Origin: Pseudoclavibacter terrae
Lineage (GTDB): Bacteria > Actinomycetota > Actinomycetes > Actinomycetales > Microbacteriaceae
Assembly (NCBI RefSeq): GCF_008831075.1
Contig: NZ_WBJX01000001.1
Span: forward strand, 248,001 to 312,000
DNA length: 64,000 nt
Reading direction: 5' to 3'
In this document: in pieces, positions 40,075 through 48,915 of the stretch
Numbering within the stretch: the first letter of the stretch is position 1
How the letters are laid out: each line of letters opens with the position of its first letter
Notes under the pieces: model-generated
Database searches by the model: none
Seen by the model: only the letters and a program-made list of their open reading frames with translations
Told to the model about the DNA's origin: nothing
Program-made: the position numbers and the translations under genes

Positions 40075-40542
40075 TCAGTCGCCTGCGGGCGGCGAGTGTC
40101 GGATGGCCGTGGACAGGGAGAGTGAGGTCACGGTGTTCTTGACGCCCGGGATGGCGGCGATGCTCTCCCAGACCTCCTTGATGCGCTCGACCGAGCGGGC
40201 CTCGAGGAGCACGAACAGGTCGTAGTCGCCGGTCAGGATGTCGCATCTGATCACCTCGGGGACCTCCGCGAGCGTTGCGAGGACATCGGCCCCGCGCATC
40301 CGGTCGGCGCGGTAGACGAAGAGCACGGCGGAGATCGGGTGGTCGTGGGTGTCGGCGTCGCTGCCCCGCACGAGGGTGTAGCCCTCGATGACCCCGTCTC
40401 GTTCGAGGCGCTCGATGCGCTGCTTCACCGCGTTGCGTGAGAGTCGGACCCGGTTCCCAAGTGCGACGAGCGGGATGCGCGCGTTCTTGGTCAGCTCTCG
40501 CAGGATCTGCGCGTCGATCTCGTCTCGTGGCCGCATCGTCAT
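40075..40542 (-). CDS. Lrp/AsnC-family transcriptional regulator
   Basis: A 155-residue protein. An N-terminal helix-turn-helix (DAQILRELTKNARIPLVALGNRVRLSRNAVKQRIERLERDGVI spans about residues 9-52) is followed by a RAM ligand-binding domain (ISAVLFVYRADRM, VIRCDILTGDYDLFVLLEA). Lrp/AsnC regulators sense amino acids, often controlling the neighbouring divergent gene. The divergent partner here is a cyclase-family hydrolase, with a good promoter between them (40564-40593). The effector is unknown; an amino acid or kynurenine-type compound would be logical. Confidence 0.92.
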   Translation of the reverse strand: MTMRPRDEIDAQILRELTKNARIPLVALGNRVRLSRNAVKQRIERLERDGVIEGYTLVRGSDADTHDHPISAVLFVYRADRMRGADVLATLAEVPEVIRCDILTGDYDLFVLLEARSVERIKEVWESIAAIPGVKNTVTSLSLSTAIRHSPPAGD

Positions 40543-40563
40543 TGCTGCACCCCCTCCATGCGT

Positions 40564-40593
40564 GTGACATTAGCACTATGACATGGTTATATT
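40564..40593 (+). promoter_or_regulatory. Sigma-70-type promoter of cyclase-family gene
   Basis: -35 GTGACA (40564-40569), 18-base spacer, -10 TATATT (40588-40593): five of six matches to consensus in each box. The ATG at 40648 lies about 48 bases after the predicted start of transcription. The AT-rich stretch would suit Lrp/AsnC binding. Confidence 0.6.
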
Positions 40594-40647
40594 GCATAGG
40601 GCGTGGAACGACGACGACGCGATGACGCGTCACAGGAGAGGAACACG

Positions 40648-41835
40648 ATGGTTCTCAGGACAACGGTTCGAAGCAGGATCCGGGTGTACTGGCCAGTGCA
40701 GCCAGCCACGTTCGCCGAGGTCGTCGCCGGCAACGTCTCGGTCTTCAGGGAGAGTCCCGACGTGCGCCCACTGCGCGACGTGCTCGCGTCGTTCTCGGAG
40801 GTCGGTGACTTCGGTGACTACAAGACGGTGACCGAGGTGTCGATCGGCTTCGAGGGCTTCACCGTGGGGTCAGGAGCTCAGCCGACGCTCGGGTCCGCTG
40901 GCGAGCGGACGATTTCGCCCACGCTCGCGGTGACGACGCACGTCGACGACGCACTCGGCTCTGCTCGGCTCACCGAGATTCTCGAGCGCATCGTCGAGGT
41001 GCATCCATGGGAGGTGCCCGTGATCGAGGTGACCGAGGGGGTGACGCTCGTCTCGCGGGGGAAGGGGACGAGCGCGCTGGCCTCGAGCGGCGCCAGCTCG
41101 AGTGATGCCTGGTCGCAGCTGAGCGCTGCGCTCGAGGGGCGCGTCTACACGGATCTCACGCACGCCTTCCACGCCGGGCAACCCCATTTCCCGGCGTTCC
41201 CGGACGAGGAGCGTGAAGAGCTTTTCTCCCTGGAGCGTGGAGACGGATTCACGGCGCACCGGTACTCGCTCATCGGACAGTGGGGCACGCACGTGGACCC
41301 GCCATCGCACTTCGCCGCCGGAGGGCGGGCTGTCGACGAGCTGCCAGTCTCCGAGATGATCCTCCCGCTGGTCGTCCTCGACATCAGCGAACGTGCGGCG
41401 AGCGACGCGGATGCGACGCCGGTGCTCCGGGATGTCGAGCGCTGGGAGGCGGAGCACGGACGGATCCCCGCTCGCGCCTTCGTGGCGCTCCGCACCGATT
41501 GGAGCCACCGCTGGCCCGACGCCGCAGCCATGGCCAACACGGACTCGGACGGTGTGAGCCACACGCCCGGATGGTCGCGCGAGGTGCTCACCTTTCTGAT
41601 CGAGGAGCGTGACATCGCGGGTGTCGGTCATGAGCAGACCGACACGGATCCGGGTGTCGCGACCTCCGCTGGCGACTTCAGCCTCGAGCGATTCCTGCTC
41701 GAGCGGGATCGGTGGCAGGTTGAGCTGCTCGCGAGTCTTGATCGCGTGCCGGCGGCCGGCGCAGCGGTCGTCGCGACCTGGCCGAAACCGCAGGGCGGAA
41801 GCGGATTCCCCGCTCGAGTCTTCGCGATCCACTGA
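40648..41835 (+). CDS. Cyclase/kynurenine-formamidase-family hydrolase with N-terminal NIF3/CutA-like domain
   Basis: A 395-residue two-part protein. The C-terminal part (from about residue 160) is a metal-dependent cyclase/KynB-like hydrolase: YTDLTHAFHAGQPHFPAFP, then GQWGTHVDPPSHFAAGGRAVDE, the HxGTHxDxPxH-type metal site (here WGTHVDPPSH), and GVGHEQTDTDPG. The N-terminal 140 residues contain HVDDALGSARLTEILERIVE followed by HPWEVPVIEV, which resembles the HPYEEPxxDV strand of NIF3/CutA-type ferredoxin-like domains. KynB-type enzymes hydrolyse N-formylkynurenine. ATG 40648 has GGAGAGG upstream. The substrate is open. An IclR gene follows after 20 bp, and Lrp is divergent. Confidence 0.8.
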   Translation: MVLRTTVRSRIRVYWPVQPATFAEVVAGNVSVFRESPDVRPLRDVLASFSEVGDFGDYKTVTEVSIGFEGFTVGSGAQPTLGSAGERTISPTLAVTTHVDDALGSARLTEILERIVEVHPWEVPVIEVTEGVTLVSRGKGTSALASSGASSSDAWSQLSAALEGRVYTDLTHAFHAGQPHFPAFPDEEREELFSLERGDGFTAHRYSLIGQWGTHVDPPSHFAAGGRAVDELPVSEMILPLVVLDISERAASDADATPVLRDVERWEAEHGRIPARAFVALRTDWSHRWPDAAAMANTDSDGVSHTPGWSREVLTFLIEERDIAGVGHEQTDTDPGVATSAGDFSLERFLLERDRWQVELLASLDRVPAAGAAVVATWPKPQGGSGFPARVFAIH

Positions 41836-41855
41836 CCCTCGCTAGGCTGGCGAGC

Positions 41856-42620
41856 GTGGAGTCGAATTCGAGCATGGGGCGTGCCCTCGACGTGCTCACC
41901 ACGCTCGCCCAGCTGACGCGGACACCTCCGCACCGTGCGACGGTGGCTCAGGTCGCGGGTGCGCTCGACCGTGATCGCTCGCAGGTCTCGCGAACGCTGA
42001 AGCACCTTGCCGAGGATGGCTCGGTCCTGAGGCGCGATGACCGGAGCTACGAGCTCGGATGGCGCGGCTACGCGACCGCTCAGGAGCTCACGGAGCGACG
42101 CCTGAGGATCGATGGCCTCACGCTGCTCGAGGGGCTCGCGCGGGACACCGGCGAGGCCTGCTTCATCGGCGTCCTGAGCGGTGACAGCACGGTGACGATC
42201 GTGGAGGCACTGCCGAGGGACGCTCGCATGATCGGCTCCTGGCTGGGCCGCCCGTATCCGGCGTTCTGCTCGGACGCAGGGCAGGGGACGCTCTGGGATG
42301 CCGACGACGACGAGGTGGCCGCCGTGCTCGCGGTGGCGGACTTCCGGGCGTCAGGGCCGAATGCTCCGGTCGATGTCGGCGACTTCCTCGAGCGCCTGGA
42401 GCGCGCGCGTCGGCGCGGGTACTCGATCGTGGATGAGGAAGCAGAACCGGGGCTCTACTCTGTCGGCGCTCCGATCTGGGACTTCCGCGGCGAGGTGATC
42501 GCGGCCGTGCAGATCGTCGGCGCCCGTGCGGAGATGGTGCCGAAGAGCGATGAGCTCGGGGCTGCGGTGGCCCGGACCGCCGCGCGCCTCTCCGAAGTGC
42601 TGGCCGCTCCCGCCTGCTGA
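41856..42620 (+). CDS. IclR-family transcriptional regulator (first)
   Basis: A 254-residue protein with an N-terminal winged helix (MGRALDVLTTLAQLTR to DRDRSQVSRTLKHLAEDGSVLR, about residues 6-58) and an IclR effector domain (GLARDTGEACFIGVLSGDS, RPYPAFCSDAGQGTLWD, GYSIVDEEAEPGLYSVGAPI). The start is GTG 41856 with a TAGGCT -10-like hexamer 8 bases upstream, so it may have its own leaderless transcript. It probably regulates the cyclase-family gene upstream or the amino-acid cluster that follows, which carries its own IclR. Confidence 0.9.
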   Translation: MESNSSMGRALDVLTTLAQLTRTPPHRATVAQVAGALDRDRSQVSRTLKHLAEDGSVLRRDDRSYELGWRGYATAQELTERRLRIDGLTLLEGLARDTGEACFIGVLSGDSTVTIVEALPRDARMIGSWLGRPYPAFCSDAGQGTLWDADDDEVAAVLAVADFRASGPNAPVDVGDFLERLERARRRGYSIVDEEAEPGLYSVGAPIWDFRGEVIAAVQIVGARAEMVPKSDELGAAVARTAARLSEVLAAPAC

Positions 42621-42623
42621 CGC

Positions 42624-43382
42624 TCAGCTGCCGGAGGTGGCGAGTGCCGTGATGCGCGCGGCCGCGGCCTTCATCGCCGCGATCAGGCCGGGGGTCTCGG
42701 CTTCAGGGAGGGCTTGGGAGACGCAGCTGAGCGAGGCCACGATGGCCTCGCCCTCGCCTCGGAGGGGGACAGCGAGATCGCTCGACTCATGTTCGAACTC
42801 CTCGAAGGCGTCGACGTGACCGCTTGACCGATCACGGTCGATTCTGGCGGCCAGCTCGGCGATCGAGTAGGCGGCGCGGGGTCCGCCGACGCCGACGAAC
42901 TGCGCGTTGCCGAGGAGCTGCTCCAGCGTGCCGAGCGACGAGTCCCAGAGGAGCGCACGCCCGGCCCCCGTGCACCAGATCGGGGTGACCATGCCGGGGC
43001 GCAGCGACGCGGTCGTCCCCGACGTCGGCGACTCGAATCGAAGGAGCAGTGCGCGGTCGCCGAGTGACGCCGAGATGCGCGCATCCACGGGGAACCGGGC
43101 GACCAGGGAGCGCAGTTCGCTTCGTGCCGCTCGCAGCCACGGGGTGTGGCGGGCGGCGGCCACCTGGAAATGGCGAGGTCCTGGCCGGAAGACCAGCTCC
43201 TCGTTCTTCTCCAGCATCCGCAGCTGGACGAGTTCCTGCGTGAGGCGCGACACCCGGCTGCGTTCGATCCCGGTGTGGTCGGCGAGCCTCGACACCGTGA
43301 AGGCGGAGCGGCCGGTGGCCTCCCTCTGCGTCGCTGCGGTCAGGAGCGACAGGCCCTGCGCCAGCGAGGACTGCTGCTGCAT
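42624..43382 (-). CDS. IclR-family transcriptional regulator (second)
   Basis: A 252-residue protein with a winged helix (LAQGLSLLTAATQ to TGIERSRVSRLTQELVQLRML, about residues 7-60) and an IclR-type effector domain (VDARISASLGDRALLLRFES, GMVTPIWCTGAGRALLWDS). ATG 43382 is chosen because GAGGAG lies 7 bases upstream; an earlier ATG at 43487 lies inside the racemase 3' end. It is the last gene of the permease-racemase-regulator operon on the minus strand. An IclR-box-like palindrome (46234-46247) lies at the operon's divergent promoter. It is convergent with the first IclR gene, only 3 bp away. Confidence 0.88.
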   Translation of the reverse strand: MQQQSSLAQGLSLLTAATQREATGRSAFTVSRLADHTGIERSRVSRLTQELVQLRMLEKNEELVFRPGPRHFQVAAARHTPWLRAARSELRSLVARFPVDARISASLGDRALLLRFESPTSGTTASLRPGMVTPIWCTGAGRALLWDSSLGTLEQLLGNAQFVGVGGPRAAYSIAELAARIDRDRSSGHVDAFEEFEHESSDLAVPLRGEGEAIVASLSCVSQALPEAETPGLIAAMKAAAARITALATSGS

Positions 43383-43446
43383 GGTGCGATCTCCTCGGAG
43401 TCGAGCTCTCTGCGTGTCACCTCGAATGTCGGCGACGGTGGGGGCT

Positions 43447-44601
43447 TCAGCGTACTGCGAGCGCGGGCCGACGGGCGGCGCTGCCAACCGCGAATCGGGG
43501 GAGGATACGCCCCCAGGCGGTGTAGAGGTCTGCGGCGATCTGCGTGTTGGCGAGTTCGAGGTCGTGGCTCGTCACCTCGCCTCCGCCCTGCCTGCCGTAG
43601 AGCACGACATCGTCCCCCGGGAAGACGCCGTGGACCTCCGTGACGTCGATGATCAGGCAGTTCATGCCGGGCAGGTCGATGACGGGCGCGCGCTTGCCGC
43701 GGATGAGCACCTGCGCGCGACCGCCCAGGCTCCGATGGAAGCCGTCCCCGTAGCCGACCGGGACCGAGGCGAGCACGGAGTCGCGTTCGAGCACGTGGGT
43801 GCGTTCGTAGCCGACGGTCTCGCCGGCGGAGTATCCGTTGACGGCGGCGACGCGGGATCTGACGGTCATCGCCCTCCGGAAGCGCTTCGGGTCGGCCGTG
43901 GTGTCGCCGTAGAGGGCGGCCCCGATGCGGACGAGGTCGAGTCGGGACTCGGGCACGGTCAGGCCCGCGTACGAGGTGGCGCAATGGCGGTCGATCCGCG
44001 AGGTGGCACCCTGCTCTCGCAGCACGCTCGTGGCGGTCTCGGCCTCGTCGACGAACCGGGCCGTGCCGGCTCTGATGTCCTGCTGATCCTCGAGGGGGAA
44101 GTGCGTCGCGATGCCGCGCACATCGAGTCCGGGGAGGGATGCGAGCGCCCGAAGCTCTGCGAGGCCTGCGGGGCGTGACACGTCGATGCCCTCCCGCGTG
44201 ATGCCGGTCGAGTTCACGGACAGGTGAACGGGAATCGATCGACCGGAGGCGGTGGCGATGGCCGAGGCGGTTGTGGCGTGCGGGAAGCCGCCGATCCACT
44301 CCTCGATGTTCCAGTGGACCCCCGCCTGCATCTCCTGCGGCTGCGCAGAACGCAGCCGCAGGAGACGCCCCGTGAAGCCAAGGGCGCGGAGTTGGGCGGC
44401 TTCACGGTTACTCGAGATGCCGAGCATCTCGATGTTCTTGGCGATGACGACGGGGCCGAGCAGGTCGATGCCGTGCCCGTAGGCGTCCGCCTTGAGGACG
44501 ATGCAGAGCGTGCTGCGTCCGGCGAACTCCCGCTGGATCTCCTGGAGATTGTGCTCGATGGCGTCGAGATCCACCTCGACCCAGACGGGTTCCGTCGTCA
44601 T
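43447..44601 (-). CDS. PLP-dependent alanine/broad-specificity amino acid racemase
   Basis: A 384-residue fold-III racemase. The PLP lysine is in VLKADAYGHG (about residue 36) and the second catalytic base is the Tyr in VPVGYGDGFHRSLGG (about 270). VNSTGITREGI (about 140), THFPLEDQQDIRAG and HWNIEEWIGG look closer to broad-specificity racemases (Bsr/Bar), where NSxGxxRxG replaces the DTGMxRxG of ordinary Alr. Those relatives are usually exported; this protein has no signal peptide. ATG 44601 follows the permease stop by 8 bp. Position between a permease and homoserine-dehydrogenase/aldehyde-dehydrogenase genes argues for catabolism of a D- or L-amino acid rather than cell-wall alanine supply. 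Confidence 0.85.
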   Translation of the reverse strand: MTTEPVWVEVDLDAIEHNLQEIQREFAGRSTLCIVLKADAYGHGIDLLGPVVIAKNIEMLGISSNREAAQLRALGFTGRLLRLRSAQPQEMQAGVHWNIEEWIGGFPHATTASAIATASGRSIPVHLSVNSTGITREGIDVSRPAGLAELRALASLPGLDVRGIATHFPLEDQQDIRAGTARFVDEAETATSVLREQGATSRIDRHCATSYAGLTVPESRLDLVRIGAALYGDTTADPKRFRRAMTVRSRVAAVNGYSAGETVGYERTHVLERDSVLASVPVGYGDGFHRSLGGRAQVLIRGKRAPVIDLPGMNCLIIDVTEVHGVFPGDDVVLYGRQGGGEVTSHDLELANTQIAADLYTAWGRILPRFAVGSAARRPALAVR

Positions 44602-44609
44602 CCGCGTGC

Positions 44610-46151
44610 TCAATGCTCTGCGCTTCTCTCCGGTGAGCGCCCACGCCCGGTCTCGGTCGCGGTCCCATCCGGGGCGGCGATGGGTGCCTCCTCGTCGATG
44701 AGAAGCCTCGGCTTCGCGCCACGGCGGGTGTAGCGCCACCAGAAGATCACGTAGCAGGCGATGACGAACGGCACCCCGAAGTAGAGGGCTGCGATCTGGT
44801 TCGGGTCGAAGGCGATCGCCACGATCGAGACGCTCAGCAGCACGAACGCCAGGATGGGCACGAACGGGTACAGCGGCGTGCGGTAGGCCAGCGTGCGCAC
44901 GTCGCCACCGCTGCGCACGAACTTCCGGCGGTGGAAGAACTGCGAGGCGACGATCGACATCCACACCGCGACCACGGCGAAGCCCGCGACGGAGACCAGC
45001 ACGAGGTAGACCGTCTCCGGTGCCATGACGCTCGAGATGAGCGACGCGAGCCCGCCGAGCATGCTGACGCTGAGGGCCACAAGGGGGATGCCGCGGCGGG
45101 TGAGCTTCGTGAAGACCTGGGGCGCGTGGCCTTCCTCGGCCAGCGAGAAGAGCATCCGAGCGCAGGAGAACAGTCCGCTGTTGCCCGCGGAGAGCAGCGC
45201 CGTGATGATCACGAAGTTCATGATGTCGGCGGCGAACGGGATGCCGATGTACTCGAAGACCGTCACGAACGGGCTGTCGGTGACGCCGGTCTCCTCGTAC
45301 GGGACGATCGCTGCGATCACCGTGATCGCGCCGATGAAGAAGATCACGAGGCGCAGGACCGTCGACTTGAGCGCCTTGGGGATGTTCTTCGCAGGGTCCT
45401 TGGTCTCGCCAGCGGCGACACCGATGAGCTCGGAGCCGCTGAACGCGTAGAACACGGCGAGGGCGGTGACGAGGACACCGGAGATGCCGGTGGGGAAGAG
45501 CCCGTCAGGCGTGTCGAAGTTGCTGAACAGCACGGGGCCGCTTTCCGCCGCCTGCCCGCCGAACGGGGCGAAGCCGAAGATCGCCGCACCGCCGAGGATG
45601 ATCAGCACGATGATCGCCGTCACCTTGATCAGGGAGAACCAGAACTCCGACTCTCCGAACACTCGCGCCGAGATGGCGTTCATGCCGAAGAGCGCCGCGG
45701 CGAAGACGAGGCACCAGATCCAGACGTCGACGCCGGGGAACCAGCGCTGCATGAGGATGCCGGCGGCGGTGAACTCGGAGCCGAGCGCGACCGCCCAGCA
45801 CAGCCAGTAGAGCCAGGCCGTCGTGAAGCCGGTGGCGGGGTTGATGCTTCGCGCGGCGTAGATGTGGAAGGCCCCGGACACTGGGTACGCGATGGCGAGC
45901 TCGCCGAGGCAGGTCATCACGAGGTAGACCACGACCGCGCCGATGCCGTAGGCGAGGACGGCGCCGAGCGGTCCCGCCTGCGAGATCGTGTATCCGGAGC
46001 TCAGGAAGAGGCCGGAGCCGATGACCCCGCCGAGGGCGATCATCACCAGGTGGCGTGCACCCATCGATCGCTGCAGCTTGCGCAATGGCACCTGCGTGGA
46101 GGTGGTGTGGGGGAGCGAGTTGTGCAGCTCGGTATGCGTTGAAGGGGACAT
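44610..46151 (-). CDS. Amino acid permease, APC superfamily (AAT/CycA-like)
   Basis: A 513-residue transporter with 12 hydrophobic segments. The first helix region [23 protein letters not shown] (about residue 30) is the substrate-binding unwound helix of the AAT family, and [23 protein letters not shown] and [17 protein letters not shown] are further signatures. CycA, a D-serine/D-alanine/glycine carrier, belongs to this group, which fits the adjacent racemase. The last 35 residues are charged and cytosolic. It is the first gene of a minus-strand operon; the promoter region is shared with the homoserine-dehydrogenase-like gene. Confidence 0.92.
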
Positions 46152-46233
46152 GGCTCACCTTTGAGTTCTGTGTCGTGACCAGGATGCTGCGAGTGCTACA
46201 TAGTCACGTGTTGGTGTCTATATTGCATCTCTC

Positions 46234-46247
46234 TGGGATATTTCCCA
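46234..46247. promoter_or_regulatory. IclR-box-like palindrome in divergent promoter
   Basis: TGGGATATTTCCCA is a near-perfect palindrome resembling the E. coli IclR box TGGAAATNATTTCCA. It lies in the AT-richer middle (46195-46260) of the 254 bp between the permease (minus) and homoserine-dehydrogenase-like (plus) genes. It is a natural site for the cluster's own IclR regulator (42624-43382). Confidence 0.5.
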
Positions 46248-46405
46248 AGTATGCATCCGCCACCGGGTTGCACAAGCACCTACGACGAGGGCAGGCGAAA
46301 CGGCAGTCGCACCGCCGAAACGTCAGGCGACAGCGGCGAAAAGACAGCATCGGCCTGACGCAGGTGCCGCCCAAGCTGAGGTCACCTCGACCAGAAGGAG
46401 ACACC

Positions 46406-47494
46406 GTGAGAACGTACGACCTGGCCCTCATCGGATTCGGCGGCGTCAGCCGCGCACTCGCAGAGCTCATCAGCAGTGACGCTGAACGACTCACCCGACA
46501 GCTCGGCTTCAGCCTCAGGGTCGTCGCCATCACCGACCTCGCCTTCGGATCGCTTGTGCAACCGGACGGCATCGACCTCGCCGCAGTGCTGGCCATGCCG
46601 CGCGGGGCGGACTTCAGTGCGCTCCCAGGAGGAAGCGCCGACCCACGCAACCACGACGTCATCCAGGACTGCCCTGCCGACATCGTCGTCGAGGCGACCT
46701 TCACCAACCCCGTCGACGGTCAGCCCGCCGCCTCACACGTCCGGTGGGCGCTGGAATCCGGCAAGCACGTCACCACGACCAACAAGGGCCCGGTGGCGCT
46801 GCACGCCCGAGCGCTGACGGCGCTCGCCGAGGAACGCGGCCTGTCCTTCGAGTTCGAGGGGGCCGTGCTCAGCGGCACGCCGATCCTCCGGTTCGCGCAG
46901 CAGATGCTGCCAGGGCTCACGACGACGTCCGTCGAGGGCATCCTCAACGGGACCAGCAACTACGTGCTCGGGCGACGCGAAGCAGGCGCGACACTGGAGG
47001 CGGCCATCCGCGAGGCGCAGGAGCTCGGGTACGCGGAGGCGGACCCGACCGCCGACATCGAGGGCTCGGATGTGCGGCTCAAGGTCGCGATCCTCGCCCA
47101 GCAGGTGCTGGGCGTCGACGTGTCCCTCGCCAGCATCGACACGCAGGGCATCTCCGGCATCAGCGACGCCGACATCCGCGAGGCCAGCGAGCAGGGGCTT
47201 CGATGGAAGCTCATCGGATCGGCGACGAGAACGGATGACGGGGGCGTGACAGCTGCGGTGAGGCCGGTCGCGCTGGGCGAAGAGCACCCGCTCGCCGGCA
47301 TCGCGGGGGCCACGAACGCTGTGACGTTCACGACCAACCTCCTCGGACAGGTCACCGTCTCGGGCCCAGGAGCTGGTCGTGTCGAGACGGCGTACGCGTT
47401 GCTCTCCGACATCATCGCCATCGACGCCGCCACGCGCACGAGCGAACGAGCCGCGGCTGCAGAGCTCGTCGACCTCGTCGGGGTCACGCTGTGA
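46406..47494 (+). CDS. Homoserine dehydrogenase-like oxidoreductase lacking ACT domain
   Basis: A 362-residue protein of the homoserine dehydrogenase family. The dinucleotide motif is LIGFGGVSRALAEL (about residue 6), then HVTTTNKGPVALHA (catalytic-region Lys), EGILNGTSNYVLGRR (about 178) and AQELGYAEADPTADIEGSDVRLKVAILA (about 208-235), which is the substrate-binding signature. It ends without the C-terminal ACT domain that gives threonine feedback in biosynthetic actinobacterial enzymes of about 430 residues. GTG 46406 follows AGAAGGAG. The stop overlaps the aldehyde dehydrogenase start (GTGA). This suggests oxidation of homoserine to aspartate semialdehyde, passed directly to the next enzyme. 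Confidence 0.85.
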   Translation: MRTYDLALIGFGGVSRALAELISSDAERLTRQLGFSLRVVAITDLAFGSLVQPDGIDLAAVLAMPRGADFSALPGGSADPRNHDVIQDCPADIVVEATFTNPVDGQPAASHVRWALESGKHVTTTNKGPVALHARALTALAEERGLSFEFEGAVLSGTPILRFAQQMLPGLTTTSVEGILNGTSNYVLGRREAGATLEAAIREAQELGYAEADPTADIEGSDVRLKVAILAQQVLGVDVSLASIDTQGISGISDADIREASEQGLRWKLIGSATRTDDGGVTAAVRPVALGEEHPLAGIAGATNAVTFTTNLLGQVTVSGPGAGRVETAYALLSDIIAIDAATRTSERAAAAELVDLVGVTL

Positions 47495-48915
47495 CCGCCC
47501 GGCTGTCCGTCGTCGGACATGCGCCGGGTCTGGTCGCCACCGGGGAGGAGCTGGTCGTCACGAATCCCGCAGACGGAGCGGTCGTCGGGCACGTGCGCCA
47601 GCATTCCGCGGAAGACCTCCCCGAGATCATCGAGCGAGCCCGATCAGGGAGCCTCGTCGCCCGCGCGCTGTCACGCCACGCTCGCGCGACTGTCCTGGAG
47701 AACGCCGCCGCCCTCCTCGGCCAGCGGTCGGACGAGGTCGCTCGACTGATCGTCGCCGAAGCGGGCAAGACCATCGTGCAGGCGCGAAAGGAAGTCGCGC
47801 GCTGCCAGAACACCCTCAAGCTGTCCGCGGTGCAAGCACGAAGCAACGCAGGCGAAGTCGTTCCATTCGACGCGTTCGAAGGATCGGAGACGCGAACCGG
47901 GTGGTTCACGCGCGAACCGCTCGGCATCATCCTCGCGATCACGCCGTACAACGACGCGCTGAACCTGGTCGCGCACAAGATCGGTCCGGCGATCGCCGGC
48001 GGCAACTCCGTCATCCTCAAGCCCTCGCAGCTCACCCCGCTCACGGCGAGGCTCCTCGTCGACCTGCTGGTCGAGAGCGGCCTGCCCGCCGAGGTCATCA
48101 CCACGGTGCACGGCAACCGACTGCTCTCGCAGGCACTCGTCTCCGCGCGCGAGATCCGGATGGTGTCCTTCACCGGCGGCTTCCGCACTGGTGAGGCGAT
48201 CGCAGCGGCCGCGGGCATCAAGAAGGTCTCGATGGAACTCGGCGGCAACGCCCCGGTCCTCGTCTTCGGCGACGCGGATCTGACCACGGCAGTCGCGCGC
48301 TGCGTGTCCGGGTCCTTCTGGGCCGCAGGCCAGAACTGCATCGGCACGCAGCGCATCATCGTCCATGAGTCGGTCGCGGATCGGTTCCGGAACGAGTTCG
48401 TCGCGGCCACGTCGAGGCTGACGACCGGGGACCCCTCGAAGGAGTCGACGGATGTCGGCCCCATGATCAGCGAGGCCGCCGCGGACTCGGCACAGCAGTC
48501 GGTCGAGGCCGCCGTGGCCGCCGGCGCGCGGCTCCTCGAAGGCGGGCGCGCCGACGGCGCGTTCTTCCCGCCGACGGTGCTCGCCGACGTGCCGCGCAGC
48601 CAGTGCGTGTGGGCCGATGAGGCGTTCGCGCCCATCGTCGTCATCGAGACGTTCTCCTCGTTCGAGGAAGCCGTCGACCTGGCCAACGAGCCCGAGTACG
48701 CCCTCCATGCGGCGGTCTTCACGAGCAGCCTGAGCACCGCGATGCGAGCGACGCGTGAGCTCGAGGCCGGGGCGGTCATGGTCAACGACTCCTCCGACTA
48801 CCGCTTCGACGCCATGCCGTTCGGCGGCGCCAAGTACGGCAGCATGGGTCGTGAAGGGGTCCGGTTCGCGTACGAGGACATGACGCAGACGAAGGTCGTC
48901 GGCATCCTCGAGTGA
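47491..48915 (+). CDS. Aldehyde dehydrogenase (semialdehyde type)
   Basis: A 474-residue NAD(P)-dependent aldehyde dehydrogenase. ITPYNDALNLVAHKIGPAI (about residue 150) and ILKPSQLTPLTA bind the cofactor, SMELGGNAPVLVF (about 248) carries the general base Glu, and SFWAAGQNCIGTQRI (about 277-292) carries the nucleophilic Cys. The sequence style is that of succinate/glyceraldehyde/phosphonoacetaldehyde-type enzymes. GTG 47491 overlaps the homoserine-dehydrogenase-like stop by 4 bp, so the two enzymes are made together. The likely reaction is a semialdehyde (aspartate 4-semialdehyde if the neighbour acts on homoserine) to the acid. A terminator follows (48967-48994). Confidence 0.9.
   Translation: MTARLSVVGHAPGLVATGEELVVTNPADGAVVGHVRQHSAEDLPEIIERARSGSLVARALSRHARATVLENAAALLGQRSDEVARLIVAEAGKTIVQARKEVARCQNTLKLSAVQARSNAGEVVPFDAFEGSETRTGWFTREPLGIILAITPYNDALNLVAHKIGPAIAGGNSVILKPSQLTPLTARLLVDLLVESGLPAEVITTVHGNRLLSQALVSAREIRMVSFTGGFRTGEAIAAAAGIKKVSMELGGNAPVLVFGDADLTTAVARCVSGSFWAAGQNCIGTQRIIVHESVADRFRNEFVAATSRLTTGDPSKESTDVGPMISEAAADSAQQSVEAAVAAGARLLEGGRADGAFFPPTVLADVPRSQCVWADEAFAPIVVIETFSSFEEAVDLANEPEYALHAAVFTSSLSTAMRATRELEAGAVMVNDSSDYRFDAMPFGGAKYGSMGREGVRFAYEDMTQTKVVGILE

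Follow-up and report, generated by a model that had tools for sequence, protein, structure and literature searches.

The window, a stretch of 64,000 nucleotides of Pseudoclavibacter terrae (contig NZ_WBJX01000001.1, positions 248,001 to 312,000), contains at 40075-48915 a conserved cluster of genes for an Lrp/AsnC-family regulator (Lrp), a two-domain cyclase, two IclR-family regulators (IclR1 and IclR2), an APC permease, a homoserine dehydrogenase (HSD) and an aldehyde dehydrogenase (ALDH), with an amino acid racemase as an optional member. We regard this cluster, with a probability of about one half, as serving the catabolism of a homoserine with a gamma substituent, most likely S-methylmethionine (SMM). 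An earlier sequence-only reading had proposed a homoserine utilization cluster of five genes (permease, racemase, IclR2, HSD and ALDH), all of which were found at the place and on the strands it had given; its boundaries, 42624-48915, proved too narrow, since they leave out the cyclase, IclR1 and Lrp (40075-42620), which are part of the conserved cluster as well. Gene content, families, conservation and linkage were read directly from the sequences, and the substrates and reactions assigned below are predictions built upon them.

The Lrp gene (40542-40075, minus strand; PF01037/PF13412) is divergent from the cyclase open reading frame (ORF; 40648-41835, plus strand; its longest version begins at 40603), the N-terminal and C-terminal domains of which, separated at an approximate boundary, are designated cycN (40648-41100) and cycC (41101-41835). 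IclR1 (41856-42620; PF01614) lies downstream on the same strand. The minus strand further carries the permease (44610-46151; AA_permease), the racemase (43447-44601) and IclR2 (42624-43382; PF01614/PF09339; proposed start ATG at 43382), in this order, and the plus-strand pair of HSD (46406-47494) and ALDH (47491-48915) overlaps by 4 nt.

Homoserine dehydrogenase and the probable pathway to aspartate

Both the Homoserine_dh and the NAD-binding domains of the window HSD scored above the curated Pfam cut-offs (PF00742, 189 bits; PF03447, 30 bits) and no ACT domain was detected by Pfam, in agreement with the sequence-only description of an ACT-less HSD overlapping ALDH. The protein passes PRK06270 of NCBIfam (422 bits, cut-off 373), a model named simply for homoserine dehydrogenase, without a catabolic label. 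The Lys of the TNK motif and the Lys closing GYAEADPTADIEGSDVRLK are present in the window HSD, in the ACT-type HSD of the same genome and in all 18 aligned relatives; the GYAEADPTADIEGSDxxxK region is retained in the window HSD, the first Asp of ADP being replaced by Asn or Lys in five of the 18 relatives. We take the TNK lysine and the acidic-motif residues to be catalytic.

The genome gave two matches to PF00742, the second of which (C1:1165071-1165622) belongs to a 457-aa protein with an ACT domain; the ORFs flanking it are, judging by their translations, apparently lysA and thrB. Thus, the second, ACT-containing enzyme whose existence the sequence-only reading had advised to check was found, and its view of the window HSD as a non-biosynthetic enzyme is borne out by this separate protein. 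Close homologues of the window HSD are patchily distributed: among 199 family genomes 55 gave a match at E ≤ 1e-40 and only five at E ≤ 1e-130, the remaining 50 matches being weaker (best 3e-51, 37-44% identity), and in the phylum sample a match at E ≤ 1e-75 was obtained in two of 396 genomes, the own genome counted. Pseudoclavibacter sp. RFBB5 has the window HSD at 99% identity.

Conservation was counted over 29 loci with an HSD at least 50% identical to that of the window, namely the window itself, four loci from family genomes, one from the phylum sample, six from 128 plasmid records (hand-picked), 14 from the best 80 matches of one search and three from another search. About 9 kb on each side were covered at most loci, less at contig ends, and absence hereafter means absence within that stretch. 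L046 (same genome as L035) was excluded, L184 was pooled with L055, and ten loci with an HSD of 41-47% identity (L059-L065, L067, L068, L093) were also excluded, seven of which (L059, L060, L062-L065, L067) have an ALDH of 45-48% identity beside the HSD. In the Bacillus-type loci among them (L062, L063, L064, L065), an HSD of 43-44% stands beside an ALDH of 45-46%, and upstream lies a PF01053-like relative of the gamma-lyases (36-38%); this arrangement is perhaps a distant version of the homoserine route.

The ALDH (PF00171, 467 bits) has a counterpart of at least 50% identity in 25 of the 29 HSD loci; L042 and L057 lack one, and in L050 and L066 the HSD lies near the contig end. All 25 NCBIfam models listed for the window protein, headed by lactaldehyde, sulfoacetaldehyde and phosphonoacetaldehyde dehydrogenases, scored under their cut-offs. 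Family membership thus does not specify a substrate for it; conversion of aspartate semialdehyde to aspartate is predicted. An aspartate ammonia-lyase (aspartase) is encoded in 14 of the 29 loci, directly behind ALDH in several; the window cluster has none, and the genome has one elsewhere. Since this lyase often comes after the HSD-ALDH pair in relatives, a route from homoserine via aspartate semialdehyde to aspartate (and further to fumarate) is well supported, and HSD and ALDH very probably act in this direction in vivo. An HSD of Arthrobacter nicotinovorans is reported to be strongly biased to oxidation, and the counterpart of the Rhizobium leguminosarum enzyme was grouped with it (PMC10228743). 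The catabolic oxidation of homoserine to the semialdehyde and then to aspartate, which had been the core of the sequence-only reading, stands because HSD-ALDH and aspartase recur across the HSD loci; this end of the pathway is an already known kind of homoserine use.

Some of the rhizobial HSD-ALDH-aspA operons also include dapA-like and phosphotransferase genes (L043:11524-12402, L044:11534-12412, L056:11521-12399). A HAD-type hydrolase is encoded near Lrp in three HSD loci (L040:18508-19005, annotated; L045:15427-16104 and L039:6649-7404, recognized by eye); it may be a phosphohomoserine phosphatase or stand there by chance.

Permease, cyclase and regulators of the input module

A permease at least 65% identical to that of the window occurs in 14 of the 29 HSD loci. 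Lrp and both IclR proteins are encoded in all 14, cycN and cycC in 13 each, the racemase in nine and MmuM in four; none of the 15 permease-free loci has IclR1, IclR2, cycN, cycC, the racemase or MmuM at the thresholds used. Three of the 14 (the window, L035 and L036) represent one genus. The sequence-only reading had left the two-domain cyclase out of the input step, and its frequency is to be read with regard to sampling, as cycN served as the query that yielded L183, L185, L186 and the second half of L040, which contain it by selection; once these four loci are omitted, cycN is present in nine of ten. In L040, the permease and cycN lie about 12 kb from the HSD, and therefore other Streptomyces loci may hide the same parts; a Streptomyces plasmid locus has the same parts rearranged, with cycN adjoining the permease. 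The joint presence of HSD, ALDH, the permease and both IclR genes at 14 loci shows their arrangement to be more than chance. The five-gene co-occurrence that had been suggested as a check therefore holds for these genes and fails for the racemase, missing in five of the 14 loci.

The racemase (PF01168/PF00842), a pyridoxal phosphate (PLP) enzyme of broad-specificity appearance, is accordingly an accessory and not the core step it had been thought to be. The NSTG motif read from its sequence was found in the alignment. Its best PDB matches include 4bf5, 4dyj and 4dza; six entries, among them 4dyj (broad specificity), 4dza (lysine racemase) and 7agz, matched at 3e-98 to 2e-84, and the next group begins at 1.5e-42. 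The best NCBIfam model, PRK13340, scored 345 bits, below its cut-off of 434, and the alanine racemase model TIGR00492 was passed (202 against 168).

The best NCBIfam model of the window permease is the S-methylmethionine permease (613 bits, the next model reaching 379), and its identity to Escherichia coli MmuP amounts to 57.8% over 453 aa. Eight permeases of the cluster or the cyclase module are 54-58% identical to E. coli MmuP, another APC protein in L159 being 38% identical, and the same model ranked first for the three other permeases scanned (L038, L053, L182). MmuM is encoded in L039, L052, L053 and L054, the last three of Arthrobacter; comparison with the permease-free loci gave a Fisher p of 0.042, with correction neither for relatedness of the loci nor for the number of genes compared. 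The MmuM proteins of L039 and L052, the only two scanned, pass NF007020 with 398 and 407 bits (cut-off 215). Additionally, L175, found by its permease, encodes the permease, IclR2, IclR1 and MmuM with no HSD or cyclase, and is an SMM locus in itself. We consider it probable that the window permease imports SMM.

The first domain of the cyclase, cycN, is a separate gene in relatives and matched no Pfam family. In BLAST searches it was weakly similar (E 2.5e-4 to 6.7e-8) to the central part of NIF3-like proteins, as judged from six of the ten weakly matching loci, and two of these proteins were confirmed as PF01784. The AlphaFold2 monomer model based on 10 sequences (mean pLDDT 76) has the beta-alpha-beta-beta-alpha-beta order of a PII/CutA-like ferredoxin fold; Foldseek search of this model against PDB returned NIF3 first (E 1e-4), followed by CutA and PII, with the phage S-adenosylmethionine (SAM) lyase 6zm9 and the SAM-AMP lyase 9gad at ranks 42 and 43 (E 2.6e-3). 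E63, E69 and E122 are invariant in the 10 aligned sequences. Equating Tyr58 and Glu69 of cycN by number with Tyr58 and Glu69 of the phage lyase Svi3-3 was dropped, as the modelled strands do not line up. No PHROG match was obtained for three cycN sequences, and no PADLOC match for the cyclase ORF. A stand-alone cycN homologue (43% over the aligned part) is encoded at L181:9974-10375 on a plasmid of Sphingomonas parapaucimobilis from Chinese cabbage; its start lies within the 3' end of a dihydroorotase gene, and the PII-like protein thus also pairs with another cyclic-ring hydrolase.

The second domain, cycC, belongs to PF04199 (128 bits, cut-off 23.1), matches the isatin hydrolases and entry 8f9x in PDB, and contains the GTHxDxPxH motif. 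The HxxxHxD residues of this family are presumably metal ligands, and isatin hydrolase opens a cyclic amide. Relatives of cycC (about 60-64%) are also encoded on plasmids of Rhizobium, Deinococcus and Allomeiothermus (L154:8938-9696, L155:8938-9696, L156:6932-7705, L157:6956-7705), where each immediately follows genes for a branched-chain-type ABC transporter; this suggests a different role for these cyclases.

The product of the two domains is suggested by L038, a locus of the same family with the permease (82%), IclRs, racemase, HSD and ALDH, in which a PF01053 PLP enzyme stands where the cyclase is expected; it is the only permease-bearing HSD locus without cycN-cycC. This gamma-lyase is 67% identical to the enzyme of Mesorhizobium amorphae L044, whose B3/4 protein and HSD-ALDH-aspA genes suggest a canavanine locus, and a gamma-lyase and cycN-cycC were never found together (0 of 29 HSD loci). 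The canavanine gamma-lyase is reported to yield homoserine and hydroxyguanidine (PMC10018355). Because a homoserine-yielding gamma-lyase occupies their place in L038, it can be argued that cycN and cycC together make homoserine.

As for regulation, which would be exerted by Lrp and the two IclR proteins, a palindrome with the look of an IclR operator, TGGGATATTTCCCA (46234-46247), lies between the divergent permease and HSD starts. Among 21 upstream regions scanned it appeared again only in the same-genus locus L036, being absent from the other 19, and no IclR operator common to the clusters was found in these regions. A near-identical palindrome, CGTGCA(NNNNN)TGCACG, is situated between the IclR1 and cyclase genes in L160, L161 and L162 and is a possible IclR operator.

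A candidate route from S-methylmethionine and its alternatives

SMM is the likely substrate, and cycN its predicted cleaving enzyme. SMM (vitamin U, a plant amino acid) would be taken up by the MmuP-like permease; in cycN its carboxylate would displace dimethyl sulfide to leave homoserine lactone, as the phage SAM lyases do with SAM; cycC would open the lactone to homoserine, which the ACT-less HSD would convert to aspartate semialdehyde and the translationally coupled ALDH to aspartate. Aspartase, encoded in the operon of several relatives and elsewhere in the window's genome, would finally release fumarate and ammonia, and the racemase would salvage D-forms. Cleavage of SMM to dimethyl sulfide and homoserine is known from a soil bacterium (EC 3.3.1.2). 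Enzymatic cleavage to the same products has been reported for animal tissue (PMC13209565). SAM lyase and SAM-AMP lyase were described to turn a sulfonium into homoserine lactone at PII-like trimer interfaces (PMC7877911, PMC12255297), and a SAM lyase assay coupled to HSD was about 1000-fold too slow, lactone opening being slow and uncatalysed (PMC7877911), which would explain a hydrolase between a lyase and HSD. A PII-fold sulfonium lyase with a fused ring-opening hydrolase upstream of HSD would thus form a coherent path from SMM to aspartate. That the cyclase ORF turns SMM into homoserine appears to us an even chance; the particular division of labour, with cycN as a C-S lyase and the PF04199 domain as a lactonase, is somewhat more doubtful, and the complete proposal, in which a bacterial PII-fold sulfonium lyase cleaves SMM, the hydrolase fused to it opens the lactone and central metabolism is fed with carbon and nitrogen by HSD, ALDH and aspartase, is put forward as tentative.

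A number of observations weigh against this route. The permease score of 613 bits is below the curated S-methylmethionine permease cut-off of 716, and no MmuM was found in the window's own genome at E ≤ 1e-10. The role of cycN as an SMM lyase is that of a candidate with no known enzyme activity: its likeness to SAM lyase is at the fold level only (6zm9: TM-score 0.41, 8% identity), with NIF3 and CutA ranking higher; no SAM lyase was matched by sequence, the PDB profile search likewise giving NIF3 first and no SAM lyase; and Glu63 and Glu69 are placed by the model in strand 2, which does not clearly correspond to the catalytic position of SAM lyase. The Sphingomonas homologue has Cys for Trp15 and Asp for Glu122 and follows a dihydroorotase gene, where lactone making is not evident, and in Streptomyces sp. 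NBC_00826 cycN adjoins the permease with cycC apart, which fits either a lyase or a PII-like transport regulator. In three actinobacterial genomes, cycN-cycC and the two IclR genes occur within a 16-kb stretch from which HSD, ALDH and the permease are missing, and at L159 the cycN-cycC-IclR module is accompanied by the permease, about 12 kb of sequence containing no HSD. Finally, the metal motif HxxxHxD of cycC is without its first His (QWGTHVD instead of HTGTHVD or HTGTHFD in two solved relatives).

Some of these facts are what one would expect if cycN were a PII/CutA-like subunit that assists or regulates the hydrolase or the permease, the hydrolase acting on some other cyclic compound and HSD-ALDH being a separate neighbouring module. 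The sequence relatives of cycN found are NIF3 middle domains, the Sphingomonas and Streptomyces placements are compatible with such a role, the cycN-cycC-IclR module stands alone in the three actinobacterial genomes, and cycC relatives adjoin other transporters. Nevertheless, the same set of genes is met again in the family of the window, in Arthrobacter and in the rearranged Streptomyces plasmid locus, and the gamma-lyase of L038 replaces cycN and cycC jointly, so we hold this explanation to be rather improbable. The sequence-only reading had assumed import of free D/L-homoserine; in this case the permease would carry homoserine (L-, or D- via the racemase) and the cyclase would open homoserine lactone of the soil, e.g., that derived from acyl-homoserine lactones. 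A similar HSD near the R. leguminosarum homoserine locus (PMC10228743) speaks for it, as do the HSD-ALDH pairs of Streptomyces and Lentzea (L047, L048, L049, L051, L091) with no permease, cyclase or gamma-lyase in roughly 9 kb on each side. However, the permease is closest to the SMM permease, MmuM is linked to it in four of 14 related clusters, the PII-fold domain would be left without a task and the racemase is dispensable; free homoserine is therefore a less likely imported substrate than SMM and, on the whole, an unlikely one, and degradation of acyl-homoserine lactones as the main source was set aside.

Canavanine, the substrate in Pseudomonas canavaninivorans and rhizobia, is brought to mind by HSD-ALDH pairs beside a gamma-lyase in L043, L044, L045 and L058, two of which have the B3/4 protein related to canavanyl-tRNA editing, and by the L044-like lyase of the permease-bearing L038. 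We rejected it for the window as very unlikely: the genome has no close gamma-lyase (of its nine PF01053 matches the two full-length members are 29-32% identical), no B3/4 match was obtained in nine genomes in a search without a positive control, although the same query did find the L058 protein at 58% in a different search, and the MmuP-like permease and MmuM linkage point elsewhere. The view of the HSD as a spare biosynthetic enzyme for threonine or methionine agrees with the neutral label of PRK06270 and was also rejected as highly improbable, considering the separate ACT-type HSD beside the apparent lysA and thrB, the operon with ALDH and the patchy spread of the window-type enzyme.

For the preferred SMM route, the titles and abstract beginnings among the literature matches listed describe no bacterial gene for SMM cleavage, and the available part of a 2026 paper on dimethyl sulfide from soil bacteria lists other sources and contains neither "methylmethionine" nor "SMM" (PMC13352529). 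Thus, the input module, unlike the known HSD-ALDH-aspartase end, was not found described. Should the route be correct, it would assign genes to a bacterial S-methylmethionine hydrolase activity (EC 3.3.1.2), through which a sulfonium compound made by plants is used as food with dimethyl sulfide as a product. It would also add a terrestrial origin of this gas, in a pathway dedicated to catabolism, and show that cells make use of a fold known for the lyases of phage counter-defence and CRISPR.

Comparison with known systems

The HSD-ALDH end resembles the homoserine locus of R. leguminosarum, with its HSD pRL80071 (PMC10228743), for which a specific increase in the pea rhizosphere has been reported (PMC3333776). 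The pRL8 HSD of R. johnstonii, a member of the 29-locus set and presumably pRL80071, is an ACT-less enzyme 57% identical to that of the window, overlaps an ALDH (61%) and has Lrp nearby. In contrast to the window, ABC transporter and homoserine-kinase-annotated genes are found there, and the pRL8 stretch covered has no MmuP-like permease, cyclase, cycN, racemase or IclR pair; an unannotated aspA-like stretch behind the ALDH looks broken (45% over 271 aa). Canavanine degradation in P. canavaninivorans and rhizobia shares the homoserine intermediate (PMC10018355), and in L044 and L058 HSD-ALDH stands beside the gamma-lyase and B3/4 genes. The window cluster lacks both the PLP gamma-lyase and the B3/4 (CtdA) gene, the two-domain cyclase taking the place of the lyase.

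The phage SAM lyase Svi3-3 and SAM-AMP lyase share with cycN the PII-like ferredoxin fold and the proposed chemistry from a sulfonium to homoserine lactone (PMC7877911, PMC12255297); they differ in that no sequence similarity was detected, cycN is fused to a hydrolase, the residues are not matched and the proposed substrate is SMM instead of SAM. The isatin hydrolase/cyclase family PF04199 is related to cycC by sequence and the GTHxDxPxH motif, whereas the solved relatives have HTGTH and cycC QWGTH, and the predicted cycC substrate is a lactone. In E. coli MmuP/MmuM, finally, the permease is 58% identical and MmuM recurs in four related clusters, although it is absent from the window genome; SMM is there a methyl donor for methionine, whereas here its carbon and nitrogen skeleton would be consumed.

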